DNA from: Scilla litardierei
Taxonomy: Eukaryota > Streptophyta > Magnoliopsida > Asparagales > Asparagaceae
NCBI GenBank assembly: GCA_030789695.1
Contig: CM061141.1
Location: forward strand, 199,753,600-199,817,599
Direction of reading: 5' to 3'
Length of the DNA: 64,000 nucleotides
The stretch's first letter is position 1, and each line of letters opens with the position of its first letter. A program made the position numbers and the translations under genes. The notes beneath the pieces are model-generated. The model was not told the DNA's origin, ran no database searches, and saw only the letters and a list, made by a program, of their open reading frames with translations. Positions 6,712 through 39,875 of this stretch are shown piece after piece.

Positions 6712-8452
6712 AATTGAAAAGACTTTTGTGGGAAGGGAAGCTGTTATTTGATATACGTTTTTCTTTGACGGCATTTTGCTTGTTTTGTGGTGATGTGTAA
6801 TGCTGATGCATGCGGATTGTTGTTTGAAGGAATACTTGGATTCTGCTTGTTTTGTGGTGATGTGTAATGCTGATGTAATGCTGATGAATGCTTGTTTTCT
6901 GCTGCAGTTTCCTATTTAATGTGGATTAGGATGTGTCCATTCATGTGATTCACTAGTTAGCATATTTGTTTTCTTTATATTTGATTTTTCTATATTTGAT
7001 TTTTTTAAAAAGGATGCTCCTATTACACATGGCATATTTTTTTTTGCTTCATGCACTGACTTACACTGTTTGTTTCACTGATACTGTTTTATTTGTATTT
7101 CCTTTTCAGTATTCTTAATTGGTATATGCATTTTACACTTGCTTCTATATGCTCTTTGATTCTTTGTATTTCCTTTTCAGTATTTCTATATGCTCTTTTC
7201 AGTATTCTTAATTGGTATTCTTATTTGTATTTCCTTTCCTTTTCAGTATTCAGTTCAGAACTCACATCTTGTATCCAAGGCAACTCGACTTTGGGAGTCA
7301 TTACTATCTCGCAAGAGTATGTACATTTTATTTTGATATCTGGCCATGTTTGTTTTCTTGATTTGCTGATCTAGATGTACTTGTCAAGTTTGTGAGACCT
7401 CTTGTTTTCTTGCCATTGTGAAGAGCATTTATCATGAATTTCTGATAGAGCATGCTACGTACCTTTAAAAAATGAGTCACAGATTAAAACACGAGGAAGC
7501 AATCTTTTCATGGAGAAGATTGGGTTAGTCTTATACATTTCATGCTTTGTTACATAGAACATTATCCTTTTTGCCAAACATGTCTTATTTTGTCCATATG
7601 GTATTGTAGTAGTTTATATACCATTTTAAATTTCAAGGTAAAAAGAATAATCTGGATCCTTTGAAATTATGCTAATTTGGTCATATTAGCATTATAGATT
7701 TTGCTTTGACACTTGAGGTAGTTTCACATAAACTGTGAACTTCGCCACATAAACTGTGAACCTCGCCAAATTTGAATTAGACCACAAATTTTTATAAAAG
7801 TGACTTATATACCTTTAGGCTTGTAAGGTATTACAAACATTTGAAATTGCTGAAACTGAGGACTTGAAGTTGGAACTTGTATCGTCCCTAGAGAGAGTTT
7901 TGAACCTTGATCACATATATCTATGTTAAATGTTGACCGAGTTGTGAATGCTGAAAGTAGTCCTGAGATAGAACATCATTTTATACAACATGTTGAAAAA
8001 TGAATTCATGATTCATCACTCCCGTTCTGGAGAGTTATCGCCCGTCTGGGGCATGTTTTGACCCTGGAAAATACGAAATTAATGTACTTCATTATCCATC
8101 TTGAAGTTTGTTGTTACAATTTCTATCAAGCCTATTAAGTGCTTGGAAAAGTTTAGAAGATGGGTTCATGATCAATCCCATATCCTTGTAGTATCCCAGA
8201 ACTTGCTGCTTCAATTTTATAAATCGGACAACCAACAGGCATTCAGGGTACTTCTGGTGATGCATGCATTTTAAACTGCTGTCTTTCTTCAGTTTCTTCT
8301 GTTCCCGATGTTATTTTGAGTGATCTTCAGTGTCCGAATTTTTTCTGTTCTTGTTCTTTTGCTGTGTTGCGGTGCAAGTTGCAAGTTGTTTCCAACGCAC
8401 ATTTATCATCTCTGCTTTCATGATCTAATACACCTACTTAACGTGGTTACAG
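6712..8452. other. MULE interior, PMD 3' UTR and unassigned AT-rich DNA
   Basis: Starts with the presumed PMD 3' UTR, including two partial copies of a CTGATG-rich segment around 6790-6895. The rest is T-rich with no open frame I can assign. The part just before 8453 reads like an intron ending in a normal acceptor for the captured uL29 exon. Confidence 0.55.
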
Positions 8453-8560
8453 GTTAGGAAGTCAATGAGTAGAATTAAGCACGTATTAACTGAGAGAGCA
8501 ATCGCTGAGCCTGATCCTAGGAGATCCGCGGAGATGAAGAGAATGATTAATGCCCTGTGA
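8453..8560 (+). pseudogene. Captured last exon of mitochondrial ribosomal protein uL29 (L29/L47 family)
   Basis: A CAG acceptor at 8450-8452 is followed by 35 codons and a TGA. The peptide contains SRIKHVLTERAIAEPDPRRS and AEMKRMINAL. From memory of the family this matches the conserved C-terminus of plant mitochondrial uL29m (the MRPL47-type protein), including its natural end. The upstream exons, which would hold the core L29 fold, are not visible nearby. This is therefore a gene fragment picked up by the MULE with its intron border and stop codon, not a working gene. Confidence 0.7.
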
Positions 8561-9056
8561 TGCCATATCCTGAATCTAGCTCATTCCAATGCCTCCATAA
8601 CTTAATAATTCATTACTTTTGCATGAACTGGTTTCTTAAACTCCCACATCATCTACTATACACTTGCTATATGTCCATGATATGTTTGTGATATCAATAG
8701 TGTCATAGTGTCATATGTTGTGATATATTTTTTAAATTGTTCATGTCTAGGGTTTCTAATCTTTAATGTACATATGTGTGTGTATATTAGTTTTGTGGAA
8801 TACTAATCATTGATTAGAGCTTCTTCACCTTAATTGGAATTGAGGGGATGAAGAAGAGTTGAAGGGCTATATTAGATTGTCTTGAGCATCCTTTCTGGTA
8901 CCTTGTGATGCAAATATGAGATATTTTGAAGAATGAAATCGTGAACATCAGTAGAGCAAAGTTTCCTTTCCATGATAATATGTAGGACATACATGAAAAC
9001 CATTACCTTTTCCTGGTAGAAAGGGCATATTGCTAATAGCATTCTAATATTTTTAG

Positions 9057-9584
9057 GCTGATAACATATGGAGGTGTCAAGCAGAAGCTATGGGGGATCC
9101 AACTATCAGCCCCAGCAGAAGCTGGAAGCATCATTACTACGGTCGAAGATGGCAGAAAGCAAGTGGGCCTGGGTGAAAAAGTGTGCGCTGGAGATGTTGT
9201 AGGGACTCTTGTAAATGTTCCTTTCTTAATCTATCCCCTTCAATAAACTGAAGCCAATCCCATGACCTGCTGGTTTGAAGCTGTATATAGCGAACTCCAA
9301 GAGCGTCATGCAAGTTAATGTAGGAGTTTGCAATACTATGATGTATACGGTGCATGTGGATAAGTATTTTAATGGCATTTTATTTTCGTGTATGTTCTTT
9401 TCAGCATGTGACAGTTTATTTTTTTCCGTGGTTATCATTGTTGTATGTTACATGCAGCATATGTTATTCTTTCCCCTCAAGAATCAAGTCAGATATCAGC
9501 ATCTACGTTGGCACCAAAATCTTGGCTCTTTTGTATGCGGCAAGTGTTGGAATGACTATTGCTGCTGCACCAAAGTTTTTTTAA
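9057..9584 (+). pseudogene. Captured exon pair from an unidentified host gene
   Basis: Two exon-like open segments with splice borders. The first, 9057-9210, follows a TTTTAG acceptor, stays open for about 50 codons (containing KLWGIQLSAPAEAGSIITTV and VGLGEKVCAGDVVGTL) and ends at a GTAAAT donor. The second, 9458-9584, follows a CATGCAG acceptor, contains RIKSDISIYVGTKILALLYA and SVGMTIAAAPKFF and ends in TAA; it has a hydrophobic stretch that could be a membrane segment. The two may be consecutive exons of one gene. I do not recognise the family. Position inside the MULE next to the uL29 fragment points to transduplication. Confidence 0.5.
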
Positions 9585-9692
9585 CCAAGTGAGAATAAGT
9601 GCTGCTGATGTCCAAGTTGCATCCCTTGAATATAGAAACTTGCATGCAGCATATGTTTTCCTATCTTCTATATGTACTCCAACAATTTTATG

Positions 9693-10640
9693 GATGCATT
9701 CAGATGTTCGGATTTGGAGATCCGAACGTATATGCTACTGTTATTCTTATGTTCGGAATTACAAATCCGAACAGAATAATAAGATTGGTACTGTGTTCTA
9801 ATTCACACATCCGAACAGAACAAAGACCAAAGAAACAATGAACTGATGCATTCAGATGTTCGGACTTGGAGATCCGAACGTATATGCTACTGTTATTCTT
9901 ATGTTCGGAATTACAAATCCGAACAGAATAATAAGATTGGTACTGTGTTCTAATTCACACATCCGAACAGAACAAAGACCAAAGAAACAATGAACTGATG
10001 CATTCAGATGTTCGGACTTGGAGATCCGAACGTATATGCTACTGTTATTCTTATGTTCGGAATTACAAATCCGAACAGAATAATAAGATTGGTACTGTGT
10101 TCTAATTCACACATCCGAACAGAACAAAGACCAAAGAAACAATGAACTGATGCATTCAGATGTTCGGACTTGGAGATCCGAACGTATATGCTACTGTTAT
10201 TCTTATGTTCGGAATTACAAATCCGAACAGAATAATAAGATTGGTACTGTGTTCTAATTCACACATCCGAACAGAACAAAGACCAAAGAAACAATGAACT
10301 GATGCATTCAGATGTTCGGACTTGGAGATCCGAACGTATATGCTACTGTTATTCTTATGTTCGGAATTACAAATCCGAACAGAATAATAAGATTGGTACT
10401 GTGTTCTAATTCACACATCCGAACAGAACAAAGACCAAAGAAACAATGAACTGATGCATTCAGATGTTCGGACTTGGAGATCCGAACGTATATGCTACTG
10501 TTATTCTTATGTTCGGAATTACAAATCCGAACAGAATAATAAGATTGGTACTGTGTTCTAATTCACACATCCGAACAGAACAAAGACCAAAGAAACAATG
10601 AACTGATGCATTCACACATCCGAATAGAACACAAAAAAAT
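9693..10640. repeat. 152-bp tandem array with GTTCGGA/TCCGAAC palindromes
   Basis: Units start at 9693, 9845, 9997, 10149, 10301 and 10453, exactly 152 bp apart. A degenerate partial copy starts at 10605. By eye the units are nearly identical; the first differs at one base (GATTTGG against GACTTGG). Each unit holds two inverted repeats of the same geometry (GTTCGGA, 8-bp spacer, TCCGAAC) and one half site ATCCGAAC before AGAAC. The array lies immediately 3' of the transposase gene. Its uniformity implies recent expansion or gene conversion. Confidence 0.95.
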
Positions 10641-10717: not shown

Positions 10718-13699
10718 TTAATCACTATCAATAATTACATCAGTTGTTGCTACATGATTTCCAATAAGGTTCTTGAATTCTTGAATCTTAGCACCATATG
10801 AAACTACCCATCCATGTGCACATGGATATCGGAGTTGGTACCAATGACTTGCAACCGGAGGAATTGGATGTCCGTTTGTAAGATGAAGTTGAACAAAATG
10901 ATTACCATTAACGTATCCAATGGCAATGTGACGTCTAGAACCTAGTGGTTCCGGCACAGCTCTAAGAGGTAAAAACGTCAAGCATTGCTTTTCAGAAAGT
11001 GAGATCAAAACACATGAGTAACAAGAGGCAATGATATATCCCATGTATGGCATCGTCATCCAATAACGACATGGAGGATAATTATCCATATAAGCCAATG
11101 CCGTTTTGATCTCTTCATATAGTTCTTCGCCAAATATTTTTAGATACTCATTGGCATGTAAATTTAACTCCCGGCTCATGTCAGCTCTAACGGTGGCCCA
11201 CATATCCTCACCCATTCCAAGTAGAGCTGCTATGGCTCTAAATCCACAATTTCCATCTGCTTTTACATCTATTATATGTTGAATGTATGGCCTTAATTTG
11301 ATATGAAATTGGGTAGAATATTTCTCGAGCGTCGATGACTGTCTCCTAATAACCTTCTCTTTTTGCTTCCTCTTCAATGGCAATTTGGATTTAGCTGGAG
11401 TTGACTTGCTGGCTTCAATTGACAATACACGTTCAAATAGACTAGGATCGCGGCATGTTGAGATTTCAACTCTTGTGTTTTTCTTTTTCTTGGGCGCACC
11501 TTTCACACTCACCTTTTCCTTTGGCTCAACAAGAGAAGTCGCTTCTGGATTTGAAATTTCTCTTACCTTTCTCATAAGGAGGACCTTACCAGCGTCATCG
11601 GCATGTTCAAATTGTAACATAATTTGATGCAGCTCGGCACTAAACATATCCACATCTACCAACCCAGCAACTTGACCATCCTTTGTCGGCTTCATGTTAA
11701 GTTTTCTCCAATGAGAGTGTATGCTAGATAAAGGTATTGGACGCCCCTCCTTTTTAAATATTGCAATTTCATGGGCACATGGTAATCCATGTGTACGACG
11801 AATGGCACACCGACATGATTCTGCATCCGGTCCAATACATTCTGATCTCGTCGACTCAAGTAGAATTATATTCAGTGCATTCCGCGATATAAATCCTCTA
11901 AGCTCTTTGAACATAACAGGATTGAATTGATGTTGTACAGTATTAAGACTCCTCTCAAATGATGCCGTGATCTCAGTATGTTGGCGCTCGAGCATAGCAT
12001 GAATAGCTGTCCATGCGGTATCAAAACTGCCAGTGGATGTGCATAAATTCCTTTTCAAGTTTGAATGTGCAGTCTCTACTCTGTTAGTAGTAACATTCCC
12101 AAAGTGCATGTTTTTATCTACCCATGCTGAAACAAACTTCTCTTTATACTTGTTAAACCATGAACACTTCACATAATCAATGGCTTCTTGTTTTCCAACA
12201 AATTTCATTTCGAAATCACCGAGGTTATGCAAGTACTCCTCTGTGGTGAGGGACATCATTACCGAGTTCCAACCGCAGTTAAATTTATCCCATACCTCCT
12301 GTGTTTCAAAATATTTCTTACAATTTACTAATATATTTTTCGAAATATGCCATCTGCACAAATGATTTTCTGCCTTAGGGAAGACATAAGATATAGCATT
12401 CATCAAGGCAATCTCCCTATCTGTCACGATCACCCGAGGCATCATGCAACCTTGGAGCAAGTCACGCAGCCTTTCTAAAGCCCATGTGTAGGTAACCTCC
12501 CGCTCATCCTCCATAAAAACAAATGCAGCAGAAAATGTTTTTTCAGTTGATGTCACAACAACTATTTCCAACAACGGAAGTCGATATCTATTTGTCTTAT
12601 ACGTGCAATCCATAATCAAAACTTCCAAAAAAGCACGAACTAATTCCACAGATGTCGGATGTGCAAAAAATAAGTTTCTCACACATGACGTCATCTCATC
12701 TGAAGAATGCACTTCAATGTAGTTACTTGTTTTCAACTTCTTCATAAGTTGCTGCATTCGAGATCTTCCACTCATTTCAACAACTTTATAATAATGACGT
12801 GCATTATAAATAGTTCTCGTGGTGGATACATTACGCTCATCCTTCTGCTTCAACATGGTAAGAATCTCTTTAGGCCGTACTTGAGCCACTGACATATCTA
12901 TCAACATTTCACGCTCTTTCTTTTTTAACCTTCCAGCAAATGAATGTCCCTCCAGATGCTTTGCAGCTGGATGGTTGTGTGTTCCACATACAACCATTAC
13001 TTGCCAATCATCATCTGTGGGTAGCTTTATTCCTTTTAAACTAAATGGACAACCACATTTCTTAGTTCCAGTAGATATCCGACTCTTCTCGTTAGATTTT
13101 TTGAATGTACTGCGATAAGCACCACTTCTTTCGCATGCAAAGTAAAGCCTGGGCTTTCTACCTGATTTGCCAATCTCTGAACGCTTTAGTACAATGACAA
13201 GTCCATGAGCATTATCGACATCTCGTACCCAATCAAGAATTTCTTGTCGACTTGAAAATATGGTGTCAGTTGTAAAAACCTCCGTATAATCTACAACAAT
13301 CGATTCCACGACAATGCAAGAAGTGTCCTGAAGAAGCAAGTAATAAATGAGAATGCGAAAACTAAACAATAAAACTATAAAGGTTTGGTGCAAGTAGTTA
13401 TTATCCTTTATCATTTACGTGTAGTGCAATGTTATTTTAAAAAAAATATGATCCAATAATTTCATATCAAGCACCAGACGTTCGGACCTTCAAATCCGAC
13501 TGTAAAGAAAGGGGTTCGGACCTTTATATCCGAACGTCTCATTTACTGCTCAAACTTAAATGTCCGAGCGATAAAAGTTCTGATCGGATTTACAACTCCA
13601 TACACGGCGGAAATTTTTTAGATAAACCATGAATTAAAAAGAAAGCTTATACACAAATATATAATTTAAGTTTTGATTACATACCTCTTTGTCCTCCAT
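10718..13699 (-). CDS. MULE transposase with FAR1-like, DDE, SWIM and OTU domains
   Basis: The large exon runs from 13327 to 10718 after a CTTCAG acceptor. I propose a 15-nt first exon at 13699-13685 (MEDKE, then a GTATGT donor), giving about 874 residues; an alternative in-frame ATG at 13414 gives 898. Positions below use the 898-residue frame. A FAR1/GCM-type zinc DNA-binding region spans about 50-150 (C94, C120, C122, C143, H146). The MULE DDE domain has D269 (LIMDCTYKTN), D332 (VTDRE) and E447 (TNRVETAH), with C353/H356 in CRWH. A SWIM finger follows (C534, C536, C546, H548). A lysine-rich linker leads to a C-terminal OTU cysteine-protease fold with D720, C723 (ADGNC) and H839 (GNHF). All catalytic residues are present. 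MULE transposases cut and reinsert DNA at terminal repeats; the OTU could deubiquitinate host or element proteins (inference). Confidence 0.92.
13480..13560. promoter_or_regulatory. Palindrome cluster in the transposase first intron/leader
   Basis: Two inverted repeats use the same rule as the 152-bp array: GTTCGGA, 8 bp, TCCGA (imperfect, about 13480-13499), and GTTCGGA, 8 bp, TCCGAAC (about 13515-13536). Degenerate half sites follow (GTCCGAGCG, GATCGGATTT). They lie between the proposed first exon and the main exon. They could bind the transposase or act as a splicing or expression control element; no function is proven. Confidence 0.6.
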
Positions 13700-14713: not shown

Positions 14714-15300
14714 TGTAACGACCACTTTTCGTGGTACGTTGTTCGTGCACGTGCTTTTGTCCGTGCACGTGTTTGTTTTAGACCTTGTTTGTTTGTGAAC
14801 ACTTTCGTGTGATATGCCGTTGTGAACGTCCTTGAGAGTATTAAATAGTGGCACTATCTTGGAACGACACTTCTCGAGTCGTTTTTCCACAATTTAAACT
14901 TACTCGATGAGACGTGACGATTCTCACTCTTGACGGGAGACGTTTCTATTTTTAGTTTCGTCGTCCGACGTCGAAATTGAGATCCGTCTTCGTAGATAGC
15001 TCACATTCGTCGCCACGATCACCACGATATTTATTTTATAATTTTTGGAGTTTATTTGACCACTTTTATATTTTTAACAAGCTTTAAAATATTTTTAATA
15101 ATTTATTTTTAAATTAATTTCGGCCAAATAAAATTTATTTAAGTTTTAAACGTTTTAAAGAATTTTTGAGCCAATTTCCAGCTCATTTGGACCAAGTCAA
15201 ACCCTTGGATGAGTTGGAGAAGTTTAATTTCAAATTTTAAATTATTTTAAACTTCTAATCCTATTAGATTTAGCCCTAGACCAAGTCAACCCATCTATAC

Positions 15301-15308
15301 TATATAAG
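15301..15308 (+). promoter_or_regulatory. LARD-1 5' LTR TATA box
   Basis: TATATAAG in an AT-rich context, 72 bp before the palindrome at 15373. The same spacing (about 70 bp) occurs in LARD-3 on the minus strand (26813 to 26743). A repeat copy is at 21745-21752. Confidence 0.6.
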
Positions 15309-15372
15309 CAACCCATAGGAAGACCTATTTTCACAAGAAATTAGCCATAGCCTCCTCCAAAACCAAAATTGG

Positions 15373-15397
15373 ACGTTGCGACGATTCGTCGCAACGT
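15373..15397 (+). promoter_or_regulatory. Leader palindrome of LARD-1
   Basis: Perfect arms ACGTTGCGACGA and TCGTCGCAACGT around a single T. It should lie in the transcribed leader shortly after the predicted start. Copies: 21817-21841 in the other LTR and a 9-bp-arm version at 26725-26743 in LARD-3. It could be an RNA dimerisation or packaging hairpin or a DNA-binding site. Confidence 0.65.
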
Positions 15398-16294
15398 TGC
15401 GACGTTCAGCCACCGCACGACCGAAGAAACGAGGCCGTTTTCCCCGCCCCGACCGATGCTTCCGCCCGCACCAAGCCCCGCCTGCACCCCGCTGCTGCAG
15501 CCGCTCCGTTCCCCGCTTCGACCGATAGGATCTCTCGGTCAGACCGAGAGACCCGCTCGACATCCCCGCATCTCCGCACCGCACCGACCCCCGCACCGTT
15601 CGCCCGCTCCGCTCCGCATCCGACCGACCCGTTCCCTCGACCTGACCGATGGAAGCTCTCGCACCCAGCCACACCGCAGTCGCTGCACAGCCCAAACGTC
15701 GCAGCCCCCGCATTCTCAGCACACGACCGACGGATATCCCCGCATCGGCTGTGTACGACCGAGAGTCACTTGTCGCAACCCCGCATCCGTCACACCGCTT
15801 GCCACCGTGGGCCCCCCAAGTTCTCCAGAGTTATTGTGGGTCCCCCAAAGGCCCCTAGGACTACTGTGGGCCCCACCTAGGTGTGTTCTCTTCGACGACT
15901 TGCCGCGTACGACGTCGTCGCACGTCGTAGCCCGTCGTCGCACGTGCGAGCTTTGGAATCTGGAATCGTCGCCCGGGTTGATGCTCTGAATTTTCTAGCG
16001 AGGAATATATATTGGAATCTGGACTTGGAGCGCGATCTATTATTCCAACCCCCGGCGTCGCTACCCGACGCCGGTGTAGCTTTCGCGTCGTGTTGAGGTA
16101 ACGTTTTGCACCCCTAGGACCCCCAACCCAATTGCATGCTAACCAAGACTAAAAATCAGTATTTTAAAGTACTTTAAATGTTTTAGAATGCACTAATCAA
16201 GATTAATAAAACGGATGTAGGCCGGTGGACTTGTGCACGTAGGAATCGTGACTTTGGACTCGTTGGACGGTGTTTTCTTGACGTGATAGTTGCA

Positions 16295-16471
16295 GGCAAG
16301 TGAAACTTGCCAACTCTTGTGTAGGGCCATGTTTTTAGGCCACTTCCTTGTTCCTAGCGTAAAAGAGACTAGTCAGTGAAATGATAGCTGGCTAGACGCC
16401 TACTTGATCTAGTTTGACAACGAAACTAGATCCGTCACCTAATTGATCTAGCTTGACAACGAAGCTAGATC
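16295..16471 (+). ncRNA. Putative structured RNA domain (hairpins A-D), LARD-1 5' LTR
   Basis: Hairpin A: GGCAAGT/ACTTGCC at 16295-16311, loop GAA. Hairpin B: GGCC/GGCC at 16325-16341. Hairpin C: CTAGTCAG/CTGGCTAG at 16369-16395 with loop TGAAATGATAG. Hairpin D occurs twice: GATCTAGTTT/AAACTAGATC at 16406-16432 and GATCTAGCTT/AAGCTAGATC at 16445-16471, both with loop GACAACG. The two D copies differ by a compensatory T-A to C-G pair change. LARD-2 and LARD-3 have the same hairpin order with different stems and conserved C and D loops. Function is unknown; packaging, dimerisation or RNA stability are guesses. Confidence 0.65.
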
Positions 16472-17562
16472 CAACCCTTTAACCTTGTTGTTCATGCATA
16501 CTAAACTGTCACGTTTACTTTCCTTACCTGTACGCACTTTTAACTGCCATGCATTGCATCTTACATGTCATCCATGCATTGAATATTGCATTCGTAGCAC
16601 ACGCTACATACTTGTACTTGCTTGTCCAGGGCTAGGTGCACCCCTATGCCAAACATGAAAAACACTTCCTGGCTCGTGATCCAGAAGCGAGCATTACCGT
16701 TCGGGGGTAAGGCCCTGGCTCGATACACGTGGGATGGGGTAAGAGTTAAGCGGCCAATCAGCTGGGAGTCTGCCTGATCAGCAACTGCAGTTGTAGGGCG
16801 TAAACTCTGGGTGGGGCGGAGTTAAGCGACCAATCAGTGTGAAAGAAAGTCATTTCAGCTGTAAGGCGTAAACTTTGCACATGACATGAAAACATGACTA
16901 GAGAAATCCTTGTAAATGTTATTAGTCTTGCCACACTTGCCATGCCATGCTAGTTTACTTGTTGTTTTCTTTACCTGCTGCACTCATACTTAAACTGCCA
17001 TGTCATTGCATCATTCTAGAACTTTTAGGTTGCTCTTACTTGTACATTCAGTTTCACTTGCACAAGTCTTCCAGACTTGCTGACATGTGCCCCTTTCTAT
17101 TTGGGTGTCGCATGTTAGACCCTGAGCCAGAGACCGTTGCTGAGTACGTGGTGTTTTACTGACACTGAGCCTACGTTCGTCGAGGATTTTGGTGGACACC
17201 GGTGACCATTCTTTGAGTCTTTGTTGAGCTTTATTTTGTTTAGGGCCCTTTGTTAGTTATAGGTGCGTAGCACCATCGTTTGTACTTTGTACTTTTGTTG
17301 GCCATGTTTGGGCCTTTAGACTCTCATTTACTTCAGCTTGGTGGCTTTTCTGCGATGTTGGAATTTATATTTATGGATATTCTGAGATTATTCTTTTGTC
17401 TCATTTCATTATTATTATCTTGTTTCGCTCGCGTTGCAAGGACCTGCAGTTTTAAATTTGATCGACGCTTATCGGACTTGCAGCTTTGCAGCTTCAAGTC
17501 TGAGCGGACCTTCTCACGCTTCGCCTCCATATTTTTGGGAAGCGGGGCGTGACAGGTTTTGT

Positions 17563-17578
17563 TGGTGGCCCATGCAGG
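17563..17578 (+). other. LARD-1 putative primer-binding site
   Basis: TGGTGGCCCATGCAGG starts 8 nt after the 5' LTR. The same motif, at the same distance, follows the LTRs of LARD-2 (33761-33776, one difference) and LARD-3 (24309-24324, minus). It begins with TGG as expected for pairing with a tRNA CCA end, but I cannot name the tRNA; it is not the common initiator-Met site. Confidence 0.55.
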
Positions 17579-20500
17579 TCCAGTCTTGCAATTGCGAATT
17601 AACGAAACAACGATAATAACGGAATGTCCAATAAATAAATTGCAACATCTGAGTCATAAGCCCTGAGTCTAGTCGTTTTCTTACGACACTAGGAGTAAGA
17701 AGTCTTAGTTAGACGCCTGTGTTTGCTAGTTAGAGGCCTCTGATTGTTAGTTAGACCCCTTTCTAGCAATTGATTTAATCGTCATAGGAGTTGCCTTAGT
17801 GGTCCTTGCCTAACCCTGACCATATTAGACTTCTAGATTTTCCTTCGGTCGTTCGCTTTTGGGTTCATCGATTTCGGACCAAGCTGAACGCATTTCTTTA
17901 CCGTCTAACCTTTAGAAGTTTTAGCGCTTAGTTTTTAATCTTTAGTTGGTCGACCGTAGGAGTTTCTCCGTAGCCTCTTCTGATTCATATCCTAGGCGTA
18001 TGTATGTTTGGATCACCTGACCAATTTCCTTGCCTCGATTCACGAGATCGCCTCATAACGATCGTCGTCAATTTTCGAACCTTTCCGTTACAAATCTTGA
18101 ATCTTCCGAAAGTATTTATTTATTTATTTATTTTTTTTTCGATTTCCTCTTTCCCTAAGTTTAATTTTGTGCAAAATTTTAACATACTTATACTTCATCC
18201 CCCTTCGTTGATTTAAATTTTTTAAAACGTTGTCGGAATTTCTGGATACTAGTTTATAGTATTTTTCCCAGCCTATATTTTTCATACTTATGTAAATGTG
18301 TCGTTCTTTCATATATTAGTTTTACTTTTGCCCTGCCCAATTCGATTTATAATTTTCCTTCTTATTTGTGTTATTTGAATGATGCGTCGTGTTTACTTTA
18401 ATATACTTTCAAGACACATGGAATTTCAGCTTTCAGCAAGTTGGACTGTGCTCGTCGTTTTAGCTACTTCAGATTTTTGCAAAGTACTATTTTCATAGCC
18501 TCTTCCTGCTTTAGACACTCCCTGATTTGATTTTAAAGATTTGCTATTCGATCTTGATAATTCTTATGCTAAGTTACTATTATTTTCTTTCCGCTCACCA
18601 TACACGCTTTTAGAAAAATTTCTAAACCAAATTGAATTTTAATTATTTCTATATCCGTGCCAGACTTGTTGAGCTCGTATATTAAGAACCTTGCGTAAAT
18701 CAGTTTTTTTTTTCATTTTTGGCAAACCCTGGTTCTTTAAAAGTAGTTTCAAACCGATCATTTTAAATTTCTCCATAGCCTAAAAGTTTTGAAAGCATGA
18801 GTTTAAATTCTTCCGTTACTTGATTTCATACTTCGACTTTCCAAAACTTTTTGACAACATTATATTAAATTACTGACGTATGAATTTTCTAAACCACGTC
18901 CTTAATATTCGTGTAAATGATTTTACTTCCTTTTAAATTGATTTTGTATAAACCAATAAAACATTTTCTCTTATTATGAATATTCGACTCAAACTTATTT
19001 CAACTCGCTTTATCGATTTTCAAATATTTTATACAGATGAGGAATTCCAATTTTTTTTGAAGTACAACAGTTTTCAATTTTGCGTATTTTAGCTCATGCT
19101 ATTTACCCTATTTTCTTTCCCCTCCTATATAAGCATCACTACATCCCCCTTTTCCCCTCAACCTAAACATCACCATTGAGTCAATGTTTCGTCTAACCAA
19201 GCTGTCTCCTTGTATTCGTCCTATCTGAACTCGTGCTTATCGATCCTTCCCTCGTCACGCTCTCGATCTCTCTTTATTGCATAGGCCTTAGGGTCCTTCA
19301 ATGTCTGTGTCAACTCTTAGTTGTTAGTAGACCCTTGGACCCTTGTGAGGTTGTCGTAGTGCACGTACCTAAGCTGTGTACGTGGGCTTGTATGAGTGTA
19401 CCCCCATAGTATATTGATGATTGCCTATTGTGTGATATATATGTACTCGGAGTTATTCGGGATAGTATAAAGTTGTTGAGTGTTAGTAGTTATAGATTTT
19501 TGTGTGGATAGCTATACTATACTAGGGATGCCTGTGTATATAAGAGTTAGCGTTGAAATATCTAAGTTGTGTATGTAGTAAGAGATACTTATAATGGTTG
19601 AAATAAAATGATTGGTAAAGCTATGTGTATGATAAGTGTGATAATAATAAGCATATGTATAGTTACGTAAGTAGGCCTATTGAGTGACCCATATGAGTAT
19701 GTGCTCGTAGGTAGATATATATAGTGTTTAGACGTAAGTAGTTATGTTTTGTTGCCTGAGTATATAGGTGATATGCATATGATGGTAGAATTATAATTTT
19801 GATTGGTATTGCTTGCTTTGTGGGATGTTGCATGCGTGCATACCGTGAGGTATACACGACTATTGCACATCTTAATTATGTATGTATAGATGTGTTAGTA
19901 TACTAACTATAGGTAGTAGGCTATGGTATGAATATTTGTGTTACATGTGTGTGACTATACGATGAATACGTATGCATGTATTAGGGAGTGTATTATAAAT
20001 AGGTGGGTGCTGATGTCTGTAATGTTATTATTATGGTATATAATTAGATTGAACTATATGGGTGTTACCTGACTAAATATTAAGTGTGATTGACCTATGG
20101 TATGCATATGGTTGTATTGGTAGATATATATATATATACATATATATATATGTTGGAGTGGTATTGGTATATGTATGAATGCCGTGTTACGTATATAGAA
20201 TATTCTGATATGTGTATTGAGTCTCACTCAAGCTTGAGTGGGTATACTCTAAGTACATTGAATGTATGTTTGTAGTTTGAATATAGCAATGTTTGATGTA
20301 TGTATAGTGATAGGAGTGTTTGTGCCTGGTTGTGCTACACACATGATTGTGGGTCGTCACGCCAGTATATAGTTATAGGTGCTGGTCTTGTGGTATAGTT
20401 ATTTACTAAGGACTTGCTCGTGTGAACGTATGTGTACTAGCTAAAACTAGGTGTGTATGTGTGCTAGTTATATAATGGTATGATTGGTGTGCGTGAATGA

Positions 20501-21119
20501 AAAACTAGCGTGTATGGGTGTGCACCATGCACGGGTAAGTATGTGCTTAGTTATAGGTATTGATGACTATGATATATGTGGCGTGTCGTAAATACAGTTA
20601 TAGGACCGTACGTGATGTGAATATATGGTGAACTATTTGCATGTATTTGAATGACTATATATTGTGAAACTATAGTAGTGGTGAATGTATATTAAATATA
20701 GTGAACTTGATTTAATAATGGTATGGTGTGACTATATGTGTTGAGATGTTTGGTATTGGACGAATATTAGAGGGTAGTATACCCTTGATGTTTGTGCATA
20801 GGTAGCTATCTATAGGTAGAGCAATGATTATATTTGCTAAGAGTGAGACTATACTTATGTGAGTATCTGAAATATTGTTTTGTGTTTAGGTAAGTAGTAG
20901 TGATATAAGGAATGTATGTTTATATACCTGATTGAAATACATGTATGAATTTGACTGACTATAATAGGTATAAGTGTATACGTACGTGAATGTATATACG
21001 TGTTGGTAGTATTAATGTTTGACTACTTAGTGCATATATAAGCACTTGTAATGACTATACCTGGTTGAATTATTATATGACTTGATTGGGGTAGTTACTA
21101 GAGTGACTAGCGATATTAG

Positions 21120-21157
21120 AAAGTCCGAGGACGGACTTTATTCTAAGGTGGGGAGGA
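21120..21157 (+). other. LARD-1 pre-PPT hairpin and polypurine tract
   Basis: Hairpin AAAGTCCG/CGGACTTT (21120-21139, loop AGGA) is followed by the polypurine tract AAGGTGGGGAGGA (21145-21157) directly before the 3' LTR. LARD-2 has the equivalent hairpin with a different stem (36447-36466). Confidence 0.75.
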
Positions 21158-23998
21158 TGTAACGACCACTTTTCGTGGTACGTTGTTCGTGCACGTGCTT
21201 TTGTCCGTGCACGTGTTTGTTTTAGACCTTGTTTGTTTGTGAACACTTTCGTGTGATATGCCGTTGTGAACGTCCTTGAGAGTATTAAATAGTGGCACTA
21301 TCTTGGAACGACACTTCTCGAGTCGTTTTTCCACAATTTAAACTTACTCGATGAGACGTGACGATTCTCACTCTTAACGGGAGACGTTTCTATTTTTAGT
21401 TTCGTCGTCCGACGTCGAAATTGAGATCCGTCTTCGTAGATAGCTCACATTCGTCGCCACGATCACCACGATATTTATTTTATAATTTTTGGAGTTTATT
21501 TGACCACTTTTATATTTTTAACAAGCTTTAAAATATTTTTAATAATTTATTTTTAAATTAATTTCGGCCAAATAAAATTTATTTAAGTTTTAAACGTTTT
21601 AAAGAATTTTTGAGCCAATTTCCAGCTCATTTGGACCAAGTCAAACCCTTGGATGAGTTGGAGAAGTTTAATTTCAAATTTTAAATTATTTTAAACTTCT
21701 AATCCTATTAGATTTAGCCCTAGACCAAGTCAACCCATCTATACTATATAAGCAACCCATAGGAAGACCTATTTTCACAAGAAATTAGCCATAGCCTCCT
21801 CCAAAACCAAAATTGGACGTTGCGACGATTCGTCGCAACGTTGCGACGTTCAGCCACCGCACGACCGAAGAAACGAGGCCGTTTTCCCCGCCCCGACCGA
21901 TGCTTCCGCCCGCACCAAGCCCCGCCTGCACCCCGCTGCTGCAGCCGCTCCGTTCCCCGCTTCGACCGATAGGATCTCTCGGTCAGACCGAGAGACCCGC
22001 TCGACATCCCCGCATCTCCGCACCGCACCGACCCCCGCACCGTTCGCCCGCTCCGCTCCGCATCCGACCGACCCGTTCCCTCGACCTGACCGATGGAAGC
22101 TCTCGCACCCAGCCACACCGCAGTCGCTGCACAGCCCAAACGTCGCAGCCCCCGCATTCTCAGCGCACGACCGACGGATATCCCCGCATCGGCTGTGTAC
22201 GACCGAGAGTCACTCGTCGCAACCCCGCATCCGTCACACCGCTTGCCACCGTGGGCCCCCCAAGTTCTCCAGAGTTATTGTGGGTCCCCCAAAGGCCCCT
22301 AGGACTACTGTGGGCCCCACCTAGGTGTGTTCTCTTCGACGACTTGCCGCGTACGACGTCGTCGCACGTCGTAGCCCGTCGTCGCACGTGCGAGCTTTGG
22401 AATCTGGAATCGTTGCCCGGGTTGATGCTCTGAATTTTCTAGCGAGGAATATATATTGGAATCTGGACTTGGAGCACGATCTATTATTCCAACCCCCGGC
22501 GTCGCTACCCGACGCCGGTGTAGCTTTCGCGTCGTGTTGAGGTAACGTTTTGCACCCCTAGGACCCCCAACCCAATTGCATGCTAACCAAGACTAAAAAT
22601 CAGTATTTTAAAGTACTTTAAATGTTTTAGAATGCACTAATCAAGATTAATAAAACGGATGTAGGCCGGTGGACTTGTGCACGTAGGAATCGTGACTTTG
22701 GACTCGTTGGACGGTGTTTTCTTGACGTGATAGTTGCAGGCAAGTGAAACTTGCCAACTCTTGTGTAGGGCCATGTTTTTAGGCCACTTCCTTGTTCCTA
22801 GCGTAAAAGAGACTAGTCAGTGAAATGATAGCTGGCTAGACGCCTACTTGATCTAGTTTGACAACGAAACTAGATCCGTCACCTAATTGATCTAGCTTGA
22901 CAACGAAGCTAGATCCAACCCTTTAACCTTGTTGTTCATGCATACTAAACTGTCACGTTTACTTTCCTTACCTGTACGCACTTTTAACTGCCATGCATTG
23001 CATCTTACATGTCATCCATGCATTGAATATTGCATTCGTAGCACACGCTACATACTTGTACTTGCTTGTCCAGGGCTAGGTGCACCCCTATGCCAAACAT
23101 GAAAAACACTTCCTGGCTCGTGATCCAGAAGCGAGCATTACCGTTCGGGGGTAAGGCCCTGGCTCGATACACGTGGGATGGGGTAAGAGTTAAGCGGCCA
23201 ATCAGCTGGGAGTCTGCCTGATCAGCAACTGCAGTTGTAGGGCGTAAACTCTGGGTGGGGCGGAGTTAAGCGACCAATCAGTGTGAAAGAAAGTCATTTC
23301 AGCTGTAAGGCGTAAACTTTGCACATGACATGAAAACATGACTAGAGAAATCCTTGTAAATGTTATTAGTCTTGCCACACTTGCCATGCCATGCTAGTTT
23401 ACTTGTTGTTTTCTTTACCTGCTGCACTCATACTTAAACTGCCATGTCATTGCATCATTCTAGAACTTTTAGGTTGCTCTTACTTGTACATTCAGTTTCA
23501 CTTGCACAAGTCTTCCAGACTTGCTGACATGTGCCCCTTTCTATTTGGGTGTCGCATGTTAGACCCTGAGCCAGAGACCGTTGCTGAGTACGTGGTGTTT
23601 TACTGACACTGAGCCTACGTTCGTCGAGGATTTTGGTGGACACCGGTGACCATTCTTTGAGTCTTTGTTGAGCTTTATTTTGTTTAGGGCCCTTTGTTAG
23701 TTATAGGTGCGTAGCACCATCGTTTGTACTTTGTACTTTTGTTGGCCATGTTTGGGCCTTTAGACTCTCATTTACTTCAGCTTGGTGGCTTTTCTGCGAT
23801 GTTGGAATTTATATTTATGGATATTCTGAGATTATTCTTTTGTCTCATTTCATTATTATTATCTTGTTTCGCTCGCGTTGCAAGGACCTGCAGTTTTAAA
23901 TTTGATCGACGCTTATCGGACTTGCAGCTTTGCAGCTTCAAGTCTGAGCGGACCTTCTCACGCTTCGCCTCCATATTTTTGGGAAGCGGGGCGTGACA
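21158..23998 (+). repeat. LARD-1 3' LTR
   Basis: Same length and nearly the same sequence as 14714-17554, offset by 6444 bp. The hairpin domain copy is at 22739-22915 and the TATA box at 21745. Confidence 0.95.
22739..22915 (+). ncRNA. Putative structured RNA domain, LARD-1 3' LTR copy
   Basis: Hairpins A-D as in the 5' LTR, with identical stems and loops (C at 22813-22839, D at 22850-22876 and 22889-22915). Confidence 0.6.
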
Positions 23999-24332: not shown

Positions 24333-25196
24333 TGTCACGCCCCGCTTCCCAAAATGGACGGAGGCGAAGCGTGACAAGGCCCGCTTAGGCCAGAGCTGAG
24401 AAGCTCGGACCCAATAAGCGTCTGTAGAGGTACCATTTTAATAGATTTTCAGGTTCTTGCATTAATATAGTTCGAAACAACAGAAAGTACGGAAAGAAAG
24501 TTGCATTCATTAAATTAGAGATATAATATCCAACAAGTACAAAGTCTAAAAGGAAGCCTAAGCGTGGCAACAAACTATCTAAAAGAAAATTGAAAGTAGT
24601 AACCTCTGAAAGTGGCGACTAAAAGACATCAAGGTCTGGTCCTCGTCAGGCACGTACTCTGGGTCGACGTCCTCGGCTCCTCGTACTCCAGTGAGTCTGC
24701 CTCGTCCACAAACTCTGGCTGAACACCTGACGTACAGCACCCAAGAGAAAGGAACTGTACATCAGGTAAAGTCTACAAGAAGGGTTAGACTTTACTGCAA
24801 GTGCACCGAACTTTTAAACAACGGTTTACTGGTTGATTAGCATGCTGAGGTTCTATTACACAACAGTTTACTGGTTGATTAGCATGATGTGGTTATGACA
24901 GAGTAACACAACAGGAATGAACACAGCAGGAAAGTAAAACGAGACAAGTAGTAGTAGTAGTAGCGTGTGCTACCAGCTACGTGACTAACCTACAGGTGTC
25001 ATGACAAGTCGGGACGTGACAGGAACAAGACGGGACAAGACAAGTGAGACACGAAAGGGTTCACGCCTTACGGTTCGAGGGGGATCAGACCCTCTTGCCG
25101 TGCGCACGCTCAACCCAACCCCAAACCCCAAGGAAGACAAGACAAGACAAGACACCAGTACAAGGGTTCACTCGCTCTAGCTTGGCGAGTGCCCTA

Positions 25197-25390
25197 TTGC
25201 CCGCAGGATGTGTATCACGGGGATCACTCTCGCATGGAGAGCATCCGAAACGCCCTCAGCCTTTTTGTATCACGGGGATCACTTCCGCTAGGGAAAGCAT
25301 CCGAAACACCGGCAGGCTTTTTGTATAACAGTCAAGGGGATCATTCTCGCATGGAGAGCATCCGAAACGCCCGCAGGCTTTTTGTGTAAC
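25197..25390 (-). repeat. 55-60-bp tandem repeats in the LARD-3 LTR
   Basis: About three diverged units containing GGATCACT, GAGAGCATCCGAAAC and GCAGGCTTTTTGT. They match in reverse the five-unit array in the LARD-2 3' LTR (38816-39085). Confidence 0.85.
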
Positions 25391-25492
25391 AGGGACAGGA
25401 CATGACAAGTGTAAGGAATTGTTATTCTAGGGTGTCCACACGCACGCACACACAAGATAGCCCTAAGGTGTCAAAAGGTGTTGTTTGTCGAG

Positions 25493-25631
25493 CTTAGACT
25501 TCGTCGTCAAGTCTAAGTCGTCAGGGCGACCCGGACGCTATCAGTTCACGTCCGGTTCTATACACTCACAGTCTAACAGTTCTAACAATTTAAGACCAAG
25601 ATGCGGTCAAAAACACAAGTGGGTACACTTG
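25493..25631 (-). ncRNA. Putative structured RNA domain (hairpins A-D), LARD-3 LTR
   Basis: In minus orientation the order is: A, CAAGTG/CACTTG (25631-25616); B, GACC/GGTC (25608-25594); C, CCGGACG/CGTCCGG (25555-25531) with loop TGAACTGATAG; D, CTTAGACTT/AAGTCTAAG (25517-25493) with loop GACGACG. Hairpin B has changed both sides relative to the GGCC/GGCC of LARD-1 and LARD-2. Confidence 0.6.
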
Positions 25632-26724
25632 CATGCGATGGCGAGTGTGTCCTCCTCTCGAAACGTCTCGTCCAAGCGTCTCGTCCAAGGAAGTCCGTCT
25701 GAAATATCACCACGGTGACGGTGTCAGGTATCAAATTCATCAAATCCTATTAGGGTTCTTTTCTAGGTTATCGGGACTATCATATTCGTCAAAAGTCACT
25801 TTTTGATGTTTCAGCCTAATCGACGATCTATCCTATGTGCACAGTCAACAAAGTCCATTCGTCGATTTTCTAGATTTGTACAACGTTTTACTGGTGCTGG
25901 AAATAACTTTTAGTTCAAGTTGACGATTTTTAGTTTAGGGTTCAGTCAGCTATTGTGGGGGTTTCTACGAGTTTTGGTGAACCAACCTGAACCGGAGTTT
26001 ATCGAAGATAGGAAGTCGTGTCTGATCGGAGAACTCCTCAGCTTTAGATCTGGTCCTCTTACGATTCTCCAAAAGCTGGAACTTGCGACGAAAGCCTACG
26101 ACGTGTCGCAACGTCGTAGATGGCAAATCCGTGAAGTAGCACACCCAAGTGGGGCCCACAGCAGTGCTAGGGGTAAATGGGGGACCCACATCACCCCTGG
26201 AGGACTTGGGGGGCCCACCACAGGAGTTGGTGTGGGAGAAACCAACTTGCGACGAACGGCCGTCGGTCGTGCACTGCCGGTGCGGGGGTTCCTCTCGGTC
26301 AGACCGAGAGGGGCTCTCGGTCGGGCGTGTTGCAGCGCAGTGGAGGCGGGGGCGTGGTGCGGTGCGAGGGATTCCCTCGGTCAGATCGAGGGATCCCGTC
26401 GGTCGCAGCGGAGCGGGCCAAGTTGCAACGTTGCAACTTGCAACGAAGCGGAGCGGAGCGTGGGTGCGGGGCAGCCTCTCGGTCGCTGCGGGCGAACCCA
26501 CCGGTCGGGTGCTAGCGGGTGCGGCGATGGTGCAACGGTGCGGGCAAAGCGGCTGTGCGGAGCGGACGCTCGGTCTGACCGAGCGATGCTCTCGGTCGGA
26601 GCGGGCGACAGCGGGGGGCTTGCAGCAGAGCGATGCAAGCGGGCGATGCGAAGCGAAGCACCGGTCGGGCACGCGGAAATGCGGGGGTTGGCTCCGGTCG
26701 GGCACTAGCGGCGGCTGAACGGAG

Positions 26725-26743
26725 TTGCGACGAATCGTCGCAA
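26725..26743 (-). promoter_or_regulatory. Leader palindrome of LARD-3
   Basis: TTGCGACGA and TCGTCGCAA arms around one base, in a diverged GC-rich leader; about 70 bp from the minus-strand TATA box at 26806-26813. Confidence 0.6.
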
Positions 26744-26805
26744 TCAAGATTTAGGGTTTTATGACGGCTAGGGTTTGTGTAATGCGAAAATAACCTAGCC
26801 TAGGG

Positions 26806-26813
26806 CTTATATA
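26806..26813 (-). promoter_or_regulatory. LARD-3 LTR TATA box
   Basis: TATATAAG on the minus strand, in the same place relative to the leader palindrome as in LARD-1. Confidence 0.5.
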
Positions 26814-27401
26814 AATAGGTTAGAGCTAGGGTTAGGGTTTGGGTTTAAGAAATTGTAATTAAATAATTAAAATAATTAATTTAAAATAAATTTACTCTCC
26901 TCTCCATTACGCAAGATGGGTGCGGCCAAAAATTCTGAAATTTGGTCTAAAAATTCTTTAATACGTTATTATAATATAGGAATTTTATCATAATTAAAAC
27001 ACTTATAAAAATAGGTTTTAAAATTATTTAAAACTTTCAAATAAAGGGAAAATAGGTCAAATTAAGCCTAAAAATTGTAAAATAAATATAGGGTGTTCGG
27101 GACGACGAAAGAAAGAGAGTGGAGAAGACGGATCTAAATTTCAACGTCAAGAGACGAAACTAAATATAGAAACGTCTCGCGTCAAAACAGAGAGTCGCGA
27201 CGTCACGTCAAATAAGATAGTATCGCTGAAGAACGACTCGAGATATGTCGTTCCAAAGTTGTTCCACAATCTAATACTTTCAGAGTCGATCACGTCAACA
27301 TATCACACAAAAACGTTCAAAAACAAATAGAGTCAAAAATAAACACGTGCACGATCAAAAGCACGTGCACGAAGAAGGTACGATAGAAACATGCTGTTAC
27401 A

Positions 27402-31025: not shown

Positions 31026-33752
31026 TGTAACGGTCACTTTCCGACAGTACGTATTTTAACGCGTAGCTGTGTTTTGTGGGCGTTTTGAGTATTTGATTTT
31101 TATTACTGCCTTCCGTAGTTCAGACGCGCGACCACATCCTGTATTCATGATCCTCTCGGAGGCGCGATCGCCCCGGTATTTTCTGTGTAATTTTTGAGTG
31201 TCGAGTGACCAATCTGCTATAAAATCCTAATTATTAATAAAACAAATTTTTAAATAAAAAAATATTCGAAATTCAATTCTGTGGTGTGTTCGTTTGAAAA
31301 AAAAGGGGAAATCAACCTAATCCCTTTGAAATCTTATCTTTTAAACTAATAATTAATAAATCCTAACAACCCCACTACCCCACGTTTCCCCCTCCCTCTC
31401 ACCCACGTGCTGCCTCCCTCTCCCCCTCTCAATTTAAAGCTAATACTAGGGCTATCAATTTTCGAGGCGCCAACATTTTGCTCCCATGCGTTAACCCCTC
31501 ACACCTAGGGCCTACTCATCTCGTGCTGGGCTTTTCAACCTATACACAAGCAGCAATCAAAACCGAAAGGCAGCCCATTTTTCCTTTATTATAATAACCC
31601 TTACCTATTCCCTATTAGAAACCCTAGGGTATTATTTATAACCCTTTCTATTCTTCTAACCTAGCCTTTTACTCCTCAGAAATCAAAACACGATAGCCGC
31701 TGCCCCCATTACTTCTTCTCTCCCCTGCAACGAGAAAACCCAAAGGCCGCCAACATCATCTCGCAACCGGCCTTTCCCTTCGTTCTCCGGCCAACCAAAC
31801 CGCCGACGAGCAAACTGCCATCCCCGACAACCCTCCGACTTGCCCCCTCCCTCAAGGCGCCGGAGCACCGCCGCGAAACCCCCAAGCGCCGAAGTCCCCG
31901 TGGCCTGTGCACTTCTCCCAGCGCTGCGTCGCCAGCTCTTCGCAACCGAAGCCCCGACCCACGGCGGCAGTCACGGCGGCCTCACCTCCTCCCCGACTCT
32001 GGCCCTCGTTGCCTCGCCCTCTGGCCATCCAAGCGACTCCGGCCATCTCCATAGATGCCAGCCACCAACATTAATCCCGCCGGCCTCCTCCTCAAGACCT
32101 CCGACCAAGGTGCCACAACCTCTCCTCTCCATCGGAAACTTCTCCCTCGCATTGCCGCAACCCTCCGGCCATCATCTAGAACCCACCTACCAAGCTGAAC
32201 GGACCCCCTCTAGCCCCGCTCAGCCCCGTGCTCAGCTACGCACGGCCTCTCGCCCAGCGACCCTCACACGCGCTTCCCTCCGCAGCGCAGTAGTCCGCAG
32301 CATGGCACGGCCCCGCATCGCGTGTATGCTCTCTCTTGCAGCAGCCGCCGAGCTCTTTCGCGCGATGCTCAGGCGCAGGCAACGCCTTTCCCTCATCTGC
32401 AAGGCGATGCAAACACCTCTACGGTGAGTTTATAAGTAAATGCATGTGCACAGTAGTAGCTGATGGGTTTATAAGTATATATATGTAATTGTGAAGCTGT
32501 GAGTTGTTGGTACCCAGTGTACAGTGCTTTAAATAGTAGTGATATAAATACTTGGGTTATAAACAGTAGTTTGTACCTTGGTCTAAAACTTGTGATATCA
32601 AGGGTAATTATGTTATATCATGAATCATGCTACAGTAAGCTATTAGCCTATTATATAAACAGTTTGTAAGTTGTACATGCATGTGCTTAGGTTCATAATA
32701 TGAACAAGTATGATATTTTTAAACAGTAATATTTTGATAACATTTAACAGTGTAAATAATGAGAGAACAGTTCGCTATATTATCATATGTGAATTCTTAA
32801 GACATATTGGTTGAGAGTGTACCAAAATGAAACAGACGGATATATTAGTAGTGTTATAATACAACCATAATATCATGCAAATAAGTTAGTTGGTCGAATA
32901 GTTTTATTATTATTATTAGACTGATATCGGGACCGAATGACACAGATAGATTCCGCGCTACCACAGTCGAGTAACTGAAACCGTGACGGGGTCCATAACT
33001 GTTTCCAGATCCGACGCCAGATCCACGCGTGAACATCATTCAAACGGACTACCGCGGACGTGACGCTTGGACGAGACGCTTCGGACGGACGACACACTCG
33101 CCACCGCAGGAAAGTGTATTCCACTTGCACTTTTGGCCGTGCTTATGCCTTAGTTGGTTAGAACTGTTAACTGTGAACAAAGAGAACCGGACGTGAAATG
33201 ATAGCGTCCGGGACGTCCCTTGACGGCTCAGACTTGACGACGAAGTCTGAGCCTACCAACAACAACTTTTGACATCGTAGGATTATCTTGTGTGTGCGTG
33301 CGTGTGGACACCCTAGAATAACAACTCCCTACACTTGTCATGTCTTGTCCTGTTACCTAAAAGCCTACGGGCGTTTCGACGAGGCAGACTTACTGGAGTA
33401 CGTGGAGCCGAGGACATCGTCACCAGAGTACGTACCTGACAAGGACCAGACCTTGAGGTCTTTTAGTCGCCACTTTCAGAGGTTACTCCTTTCAGTTTTC
33501 TTTTAGATAGTTTGTTGCCACGCTTAGGCTTTTTTTTAGACTTTGTACTTGTTGGATATCATATCTCTAATTTAATGAATGCAACTTCCTTTCCGTACTT
33601 TCTGTTGTTTCGAACTATAATAATGCAAGAACCTGAAAATCGTTTAAAATGGTACCTCTACAGACGCTTATTAGGTCCGAGCTTCTCAGCTCTGGCCTAA
33701 GCGGGCCTTGTCACGCTTCGCCTCCGTCCATTTTGGGAAGCGGGGCGTGACA
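31026..33752 (+). repeat. LARD-2 5' LTR (internally deleted)
   Basis: 2727 bp. Relative to the 3' LTR it lacks the segment matching about 38835-39495, joined at TC within GCGTTTCGACGAGG (33371-33384). The lost part includes the 55-56-bp repeats. A possible TATA element (TATTTATAA) is near 31632. A GC-rich leader with a 195-codon open frame lies at 31840-32427. Confidence 0.9.
33105..33253 (+). ncRNA. Putative structured RNA domain (hairpins A-D), LARD-2 5' LTR
   Basis: C: CCGGACG/CGTCCGG at 33187-33211, loop TGAAATGATAG. D: 11-bp stem GGCTCAGACTT/AAGTCTGAGCC at 33225-33253, loop GACGACG. A (AAGTG/CACTT) and B lie upstream; B is damaged here (GGCC/TGCC). Confidence 0.6.
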
Positions 33753-38568: not shown

Positions 38569-38710
38569 AAGTGTATTCCACTTGCACTTTTGGCCGTGCT
38601 TAGGCCTTAGTTGGTTAGAACTGTTAAATGTGAACAAAGAGAACCGGACATGAAATGATAGCGTCTGGGACGCCCCTTGACGGCTCAGACTTGACGATGA
38701 AGTCTGAGCC
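38569..38710 (+). ncRNA. Putative structured RNA domain (hairpins A-D), LARD-2 3' LTR
   Basis: A: AAGTG/CACTT (38569-38583). B: GGCC/GGCC (38592-38606). C: 38644-38668, with two stem changes relative to the 5' LTR but the same loop TGAAATGATAG. D: 38682-38710, stem intact, loop GACGATG. Confidence 0.6.
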
Positions 38711-39870: not shown

Positions 39871-39875
39871 CTGAT
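39871..39875. repeat. LARD-2 target-site duplication, right copy
   Basis: CTGAT, identical to 31021-31025. Confidence 0.85.

Follow-up and report, generated by a model that had tools for sequence, protein, structure and literature searches.

A putative leader RNA domain with covarying hairpins and nearly fixed loops, common to non-coding and gag-bearing LTR elements of Scilla litardierei

Three long LTR elements in the window

The window analysed here was a stretch of 64,000 nucleotides from a 333-Mb contig of the Scilla litardierei genome assembly (3.68 Gb in 7266 contigs). It had matches to plant-mobile-domain, MULE and DUF4283/reverse-transcriptase sequences, and three large LTR elements, LARD-1, LARD-2 and LARD-3, were nested in it. 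LARD-1 (14714-23998, plus strand) was flanked by the target-site duplication CTATA, and its 5' LTR (14714-17554; 2841 bp, TGTAACG...GGGGCGTGACA) and 3' LTR (21158-23998) were 99.8% identical. This element was itself inserted in the interior of LARD-2, which lay on the minus strand with the target-site duplication TTGAT. The 5' LTR of LARD-2 was at 24333-27401, and its 3' LTR was found directly to the left of the window (positions 6890-9931 of the adjoining stretch L024) with 95.8% identity. LARD-3 (31026-39870, plus strand, target-site duplication CTGAT) had its LTRs at 31026-33752 and 36485-39870, and the pair was about 97% identical across most of its length.

Paired long LTRs and a target-site duplication were thus present in all three elements. 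In addition, LARD-1 and LARD-3 had the long interior without gag-pol coding capacity that is expected of a LARD: neither interior contained an open frame of at least 150 aa, and a Pfam search gave zero matches for the 8 shorter frames scanned out of 26 with 55 aa or more. The LTR of LARD-2 was a mosaic: it resembled LARD-1 in its first part, to about 75% where the LTR begins, and LARD-3 in its last part (about 90%). An LTR from another part of the genome (stretch L020) was likewise mixed, having a LARD-3-like start (80%) and a LARD-1-like end, and shuffling of LTRs may be common. TATA-like sites were predicted in the three elements at 15301, 26815 (minus strand) and 31633.

Hairpins with changing stems and nearly fixed loops

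The original prediction was that the LTRs of LARD-1, LARD-2 and LARD-3 carried four short hairpins, A to D, in the same order, and that their paired changes reflected selection for RNA structure. All five LTR places that it had listed carried what it described. Hairpins C and D were borne out in all five, and A and B were weaker. In the 5' LTR of LARD-1, hairpin A was at 16295-16311, B at 16325-16341, C at 16369-16395 and D at 16406-16432 (D1), followed by a second D hairpin at 16445-16471 (D2) that differed from D1 by one paired change; the same series occupied 22739-22915 in the 3' LTR. LARD-2 had C at 25531-25555 and D at 25493-25517 on the minus strand. In LARD-3, C and D were at 33187-33211 and 33225-33253 of the 5' LTR and at 38644-38668 and 38682-38710 of the 3' LTR (LARD-3b), where the stem of hairpin C had decayed to one A.C mismatch and one G.U pair.

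The stems of hairpin C were those quoted before, including CCGGACG/CGTCCGG in LARD-2 and LARD-3. Its loop (TGAAATGATAG in LARD-1) was read by us as 9 nt, GAAMUGAUA, with a closing U.G pair. Hairpin D was 10-11 bp long (11 bp in the 5' LTR of LARD-3) and perfect in LARD-1 (twice) and in LARD-3, with 9 bp in LARD-2; its loop was nearly fixed as GACRAYG. Hairpin A was mainly conserved in sequence, with one of its seven pairs changed on both sides and 4 of 28 cells broken. Hairpin B had 4 bp, one of them double-changed, and only 3 bp in the first LARD-3 LTR (LARD-3a); by eye, it was not visible in a copy from outside the window (L032).

The loops of C and D could be joined in a single pattern, TGAAMTGATAG-N15..45-TTGACRAYGAA, which had five exact matches in the window and none in 100 dinucleotide shuffles. 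Among the four distinct C-D copies of the window, 11 of 20 pairs had changed on both sides; none of 500 shuffles had as many, and controls slid along the sequence gave 0-1. The two hairpins held their loops, order and spacing although the flanks of LARD-1 barely aligned with those of LARD-2 and LARD-3. A kissing interaction between loop D and a downstream TGTTGTT in LARD-1 was also considered and rejected, since by eye LARD-2 and LARD-3 were without TGTTGTT.

A covariance model of the domain was built from the four window copies only. On the window it recovered the five known copies and one chance-level match (6.1 bits). It was then applied to 27 stretches of 10 kb, 19 from C12 and one from each of C1 to C8, all picked by coordinate, and, in addition, to the adjoining stretch with the mate LTR of LARD-2. 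Matches with E <1e-14 were found in 6 of the 27 stretches (L016, L018, L020, L026, L030 and L032), and none of these six copies had taken part in building the model. Apart from the 6.1-bit match, weak matches in L028 (7.7 bits), L030 (12.3 bits) and L032 (8.6 bits) were set aside as chance. Extrapolation from six matches in 270 kb gave very roughly 80,000 copies (about 30,000-180,000 from counting error alone), which suggests that the C-D domain is present in tens of thousands of genomic copies, with a wide error. The model did not match two LTRs with related 3' ends, one at 3138-7629 of L026 and the other ending at position 1462 of L007 and compared by its end only. Therefore, the domain is perhaps not needed by every related element.

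The 12 matches represented 11 distinct C-D copies, because the domain did not differ between the two LARD-1 LTRs, which were entered as a single copy. These copies were aligned with MAFFT without any structural information, and the two stems were then written in. Pairing was kept in 197 of 220 cells (89.5%, versus 70.7% in shuffles). Changes on both sides with pairing kept were seen at 15 of 20 pairs, versus a shuffle mean of 10.2, and 2 of 500 shuffles were as high. The covariation score was 0.614 versus 0.260 in shuffles; none of the 500 shuffles reached it and slid controls gave 0.015-0.116. The number of further pair types in the 11 copies did not rise over the shuffles (219 of 500 as high).

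The copies split into two deep clades, type 1 with five copies and type 2 with six. Within type 1, both sides had changed at 6 of 20 pairs, a count reached by 3 of 500 shuffles. For type 2 on its own the count was 3 of 20, which was not significant (181 of 500), and the type 2 cells paired above the shuffle level (4 of 500 as high). The covariation signal was thus largely owed to the single split between the two clades. When RNAalifold was run on the 11-copy alignment, as had been proposed with the original prediction, it put forward the same two stems unprompted. The majority fraction was 0.96 in loop C and 0.88 in loop D, and 0.71 in both the stems and the linkers, and the closing U.G pair of hairpin C was invariant in 11 of 11 copies. 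Selection for RNA structure was therefore well supported by the 11 copies, chiefly because a nearly fixed loop sat on a drifting yet paired stem.

Among windows along each LTR, the C-D window had the lowest folding z-score in LARD-1 (-4.7) and in LARD-3b (-3.1), and it came second in LARD-2 (-3.4); averaged across whole LTRs, the z-scores were unremarkable. Both strands folded about equally well. A count of G.U against A.C cells stood at 14 to 2 on hand-picked stems of the window, and it was rejected as a strand test when the 11 copies gave 8 to 8, the invariant U.G pair being excluded from this count. With these cells equal in number and folding about equal, the sequence did not settle the strand of the signal. 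The place of the domain, about 1.0-1.5 kb downstream of the predicted TATA box in the LARD LTRs, suggests that it lies within the transcript.

Gag-bearing relatives and further hairpins

The motif had been proposed as a property of non-coding elements, and this turned out to be wrong. It was also present in LTRs followed by gag or by gag and protease. A search with a covariance model had also been proposed earlier; run here on the sampled stretches, it found the domain in gag-bearing LTRs whose gag frames were broken by stops. In stretch L026, the A-D domain (51-193), the LTR end (1245), a tRNA-Ile primer site (1254), gag and protease followed in a row. The coding part matched Retrotrans_gag (1.4e-16), a zinc knuckle below threshold and the RVP_2 aspartyl protease (5.6e-25); an NCBIfam search with the gag and protease pieces gave a single chance match far under the cut-off. 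Just past the protease domain this element was interrupted by a second one. Stretch L020 had the domain, the tRNA-Ile primer site and a gag start resembling that of L026 (23 of 30 residues), and the gag frames of both were broken. By eye, a gag-like start was also seen past the primer site in L018, and ATG-containing remnants were seen in LARD-2 and LARD-3 at the place matching the gag start. The domain accordingly occurred in many copies, with covarying stems and nearly fixed loops, and was common to gag-bearing and non-coding elements, which also agreed in their primer site and LTR ends. From these comparisons, the LARDs look like derivatives of the gag-bearing coding family.

The second element of L026 (3138-7629 together with 8155 onwards) had a 4.5-kb LTR and an interior of only about 525 bp; it had a gag-like start, yet no match to the C-D domain.

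The primer binding sites of the LARDs were found at 17563-17580 in LARD-1 (18 of 18 positions complementary to the 3' end of tRNA-Ile(AAU)), at 24324-24307 on the minus strand in LARD-2 (18 of 18) and at 33761-33778 in LARD-3 (17 of 18), with an eight-base spacer between the LTR end and the site. The same site was common to the LARDs, L020 and L026, with single differences in some. The tRNA used for this match, which we take to be plant tRNA-Ile(AAU), was read by ARAGORN as tRNA-Ile(aat). The Del lineage, by comparison, primes with initiator tRNA-Met, and this feature of Del/Tekay was absent, the site here being complementary to tRNA-Ile(AAU). On the other hand, the GGG at -8 to -10 of the type A U5 att rule (PMC4029996) was present at the LTR end GGGGCGTGACA, and the LTR length was within the range reported there for Del/Tekay plant Ty3/Gypsy elements. 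No reverse transcriptase of this LTR family was found in the DNA examined.

More conserved or covarying hairpins ran from D towards the 3' end of the element, and the original prediction had caught only part of the series. Downstream of D there was a module GAGTT...AACTC / GGGTT...AACCC, and GTAGCACACGCTAC was identical in most of the copies inspected and absent from L018 and the second LTR of L026. Hairpins Fa and F followed at 17063-17118 in LARD-1 (counterparts at 24795-24726 on the minus strand and 39409-39478). Hairpin G, adjoining the LTR 3' end, was at 17467-17507 (counterparts at 24419-24381 on the minus strand, 33666-33704 and 39784-39822), and 5 of the 7 pairs of its lower stem were double-changed among the window copies. 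A terminal U5 hairpin at 17514-17554 stopped at the LTR edge, with counterparts at 24376-24333 (minus strand) and 39827-39870. Hairpin P directly preceded the polypurine tract at 21120-21139 in LARD-1 and at 36447-36466 in LARD-3, and 3 of its 8 pairs had changed on both sides between the two. Its stems were AAAGTCCG/CGGACTTT in LARD-1, TGATTCCG/CGGAATCA in LARD-3 and AAATTCCG/CGGAATTT in L026 (about 8118-8137), so that an AGGA or AGGG loop was combined with three different stems.

In a hand-made table of nine window hairpins, 25 of 64 pairs were double-changed, a count that is descriptive only because the stems were chosen for their pairing. The alignable first part of R-U5 had 4 stems common to LARD-1 and LARD-2, with a single double change, whereas column shuffling predicted 0.055 stems. 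Perfect hairpins of at least 7 bp were enriched in the putative R-U5 of LARD-1 (8 versus 0.98 expected) and LARD-2 (12 versus 1.09), with 0 of 200 shuffles as high in each case. They were not enriched in the R-U5 of LARD-3 (2 versus 0.92 in the first LTR and 1 versus 1.38 in the second). Some control regions also had a mild excess, namely 5 versus 1.86 in the MULE, 6 versus 2.98 in the second LINE and 6 versus 2.40 in the LARD-1 interior, and 9-11 of 200 shuffles were as high.

Candidate roles of the domain

On balance, the hairpins probably belong to the genomic RNA of a tRNA-Ile-primed Ty3/Gypsy family, in whose R-U5 leader they would form a structured, cis-acting domain, and the LARDs would retain this domain because helper proteins need to recognise their RNA. 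The fixed loops GAAMUGAUA and GACRAYG are presumably contacted by protein or RNA. Such a domain could be used to select and dimerise genomic RNA for packaging into particles, and the LARDs would then travel in the particles of the helper. Packaging or dimerisation was, in our judgement, the likeliest use of the domain, and it is the most putative part of the proposal. Two features expected of a psi-like signal were observed, namely a conserved covarying RNA structure and its presence both in helper-type, gag-bearing copies (L026 and L020) and in the dependent LARD-1 to LARD-3. The gag-bearing location fits trans-mobilisation, since the signal is common to helper-type copies and to those that would depend on them. 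A more specific version, which we put forward only tentatively, is a putative packaging code of a plant Ty3/Gypsy family, in which Gag would read fixed loops on drifting stems in a leader part limited to unspliced RNA, and this part would have been copied by parasitic LARDs sharing the particles of the family. If it is true, few RNA elements of the genome would be present in larger numbers than this domain.

The structure might instead be real and selected for another step, such as initiation or strand transfer in reverse transcription, regulation of splicing, polyadenylation or export, or a shield against silencing. We regard this as somewhat unlikely. It would agree with the hairpins beyond A-D, in which the R-U5 of LARD-1 and LARD-2 is rich, since Fa, F and G continue towards the primer site, one hairpin sits at the LTR edge and P at the polypurine tract; against this, fixed loops of 7-9 nt distant from the start and primer sites would not obviously be needed for most of these steps. 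As for splicing, the junction before gag read by eye as AG|ATGG in three of four gag-type leaders and as AG|GATGG in the fourth. The A-D domain could therefore be intronic, and it would then possibly mark unspliced RNA, as retroviral psi does. However, the donor side was unconvincing, the predicted splice donors sharing no common place in the LTR.

Matching of the arms might also arise by mutation alone, if imperfect palindromes are corrected through template switching while DNA is being synthesised or RNA reverse-transcribed. Several stems were perfect, D1 and D2 of one LTR differed by a paired change, and perfect hairpins were frequent along the R-U5 of LARD-1 and LARD-2, all of which would agree with such a process. 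We nevertheless consider it improbable as the whole explanation, for it leaves unexplained that the loops were the most conserved part while the stems drifted as freely as the linkers, that every copy kept the U.G closing pair, and that order and spacing were kept amid hardly alignable flanks. Mutational correction could contribute to the matching of the arms without accounting for the fixed loops. A palindrome acting at the DNA level, as a cruciform or paired binding site in a promoter, enhancer or integration feature, appeared very improbable. A binding site would keep its arms rather than its loop, the reverse of what was observed, and a DNA cruciform would have a mismatch at the place of the U.G closing pair; in favour of the palindrome, the LTRs of LARD-1 and LARD-2 held other palindromes, such as the CGTGCACG repeats near the LTR start, and the strand was not settled by the sequence. 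We gave the least credence of all to a relic of common descent that has no present function and is seen through relatedness alone. All copies did come from one genome and one superfamily, and stem C had decayed in one LTR each of LARD-2 (the mate LTR in L024) and LARD-3. However, 89.5% paired cells with both arms changing would be unexpected under neutral descent.

Returning to the leader domain proposed above, the statement that no described motif matched it held for Rfam 15, which gave 0 matches in the 64 kb at gathering thresholds. A relaxed Rfam search found none at 31026-40000 and one chance mir-303 match (E 0.86) at 16000-17700. In public viral contigs, three matches to the loop pattern were dismissed as being without stems, and one match to the LTR-end pattern lay in DNA that looked unrelated by eye. 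The literature searched, with most subscription papers outside its scope, gave no account of this motif. The Del LTR survey treats LTR ends and CpG islands (PMC4029996), and by word search the terms hairpin, stem, inverted repeat and secondary structure do not occur in its text. We consider that the RNA element is new, well supported and of an already known type.

Retroviral psi and leader hairpins are a set of stem-loops with conserved loops, located in the genomic RNA leader after the start site and ahead of gag. By description, the present domain is alike in having several conserved-loop hairpins in a predicted genomic RNA leader, and it differs in lying much farther from the predicted start site and in its function being putative. 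Among plant elements, the Sukkula LARDs of barley and its relatives were reportedly described by Kalendar and co-workers in 2004. The LARDs of the window resemble them in their long LTRs and long non-coding interior, going by what PMC7215508 states of the class, for which it also claims a conserved RNA structure. The covarying domain found here differs from the barley type by its place in the LTR, its pair-by-pair definition and its presence in gag-bearing copies as well. Another parallel is BARE2, a Gag-less parasite that, according to PMC3735527, has retained 'conserved dimerization and packaging signals' and becomes packaged into particles. BARE1 and BARE2 are Ty1/Copia elements, and a packaging role of our domain is putative. 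According to PMC7215508, the dependence of LARDs and TRIMs on trans-complementation by a partner is assumed rather than demonstrated. The compact domain offers a concrete element to mutate, to probe and to use as a search model, and it indicates that long plant LTRs that appear not to be conserved in sequence can conceal conserved structure.

Several other features of the window were noted. The 3' LTR of LARD-3 carried about 660 bp (38834-39493), including 56-bp tandem repeats, that were missing from the 5' LTR. Both LARD-3 LTRs contained a GC-rich reading frame, open for about 255 aa (31660-32427 and 37123-37884), that ended at a splice-donor-like CTACG|GTGAGTTT, and a Pfam search with the first copy gave no match. 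On the minus strand, 10718-13414 encoded an open MULE transposase of 898 aa, the C-terminal part of which contained ADGNCGFRA, which resembles an OTU protease motif; Pfam gave no OTU match for this protein. Adjoining the MULE gene, at 9693-10614, a 152-bp unit was repeated nearly perfectly in tandem, with six copies in all.
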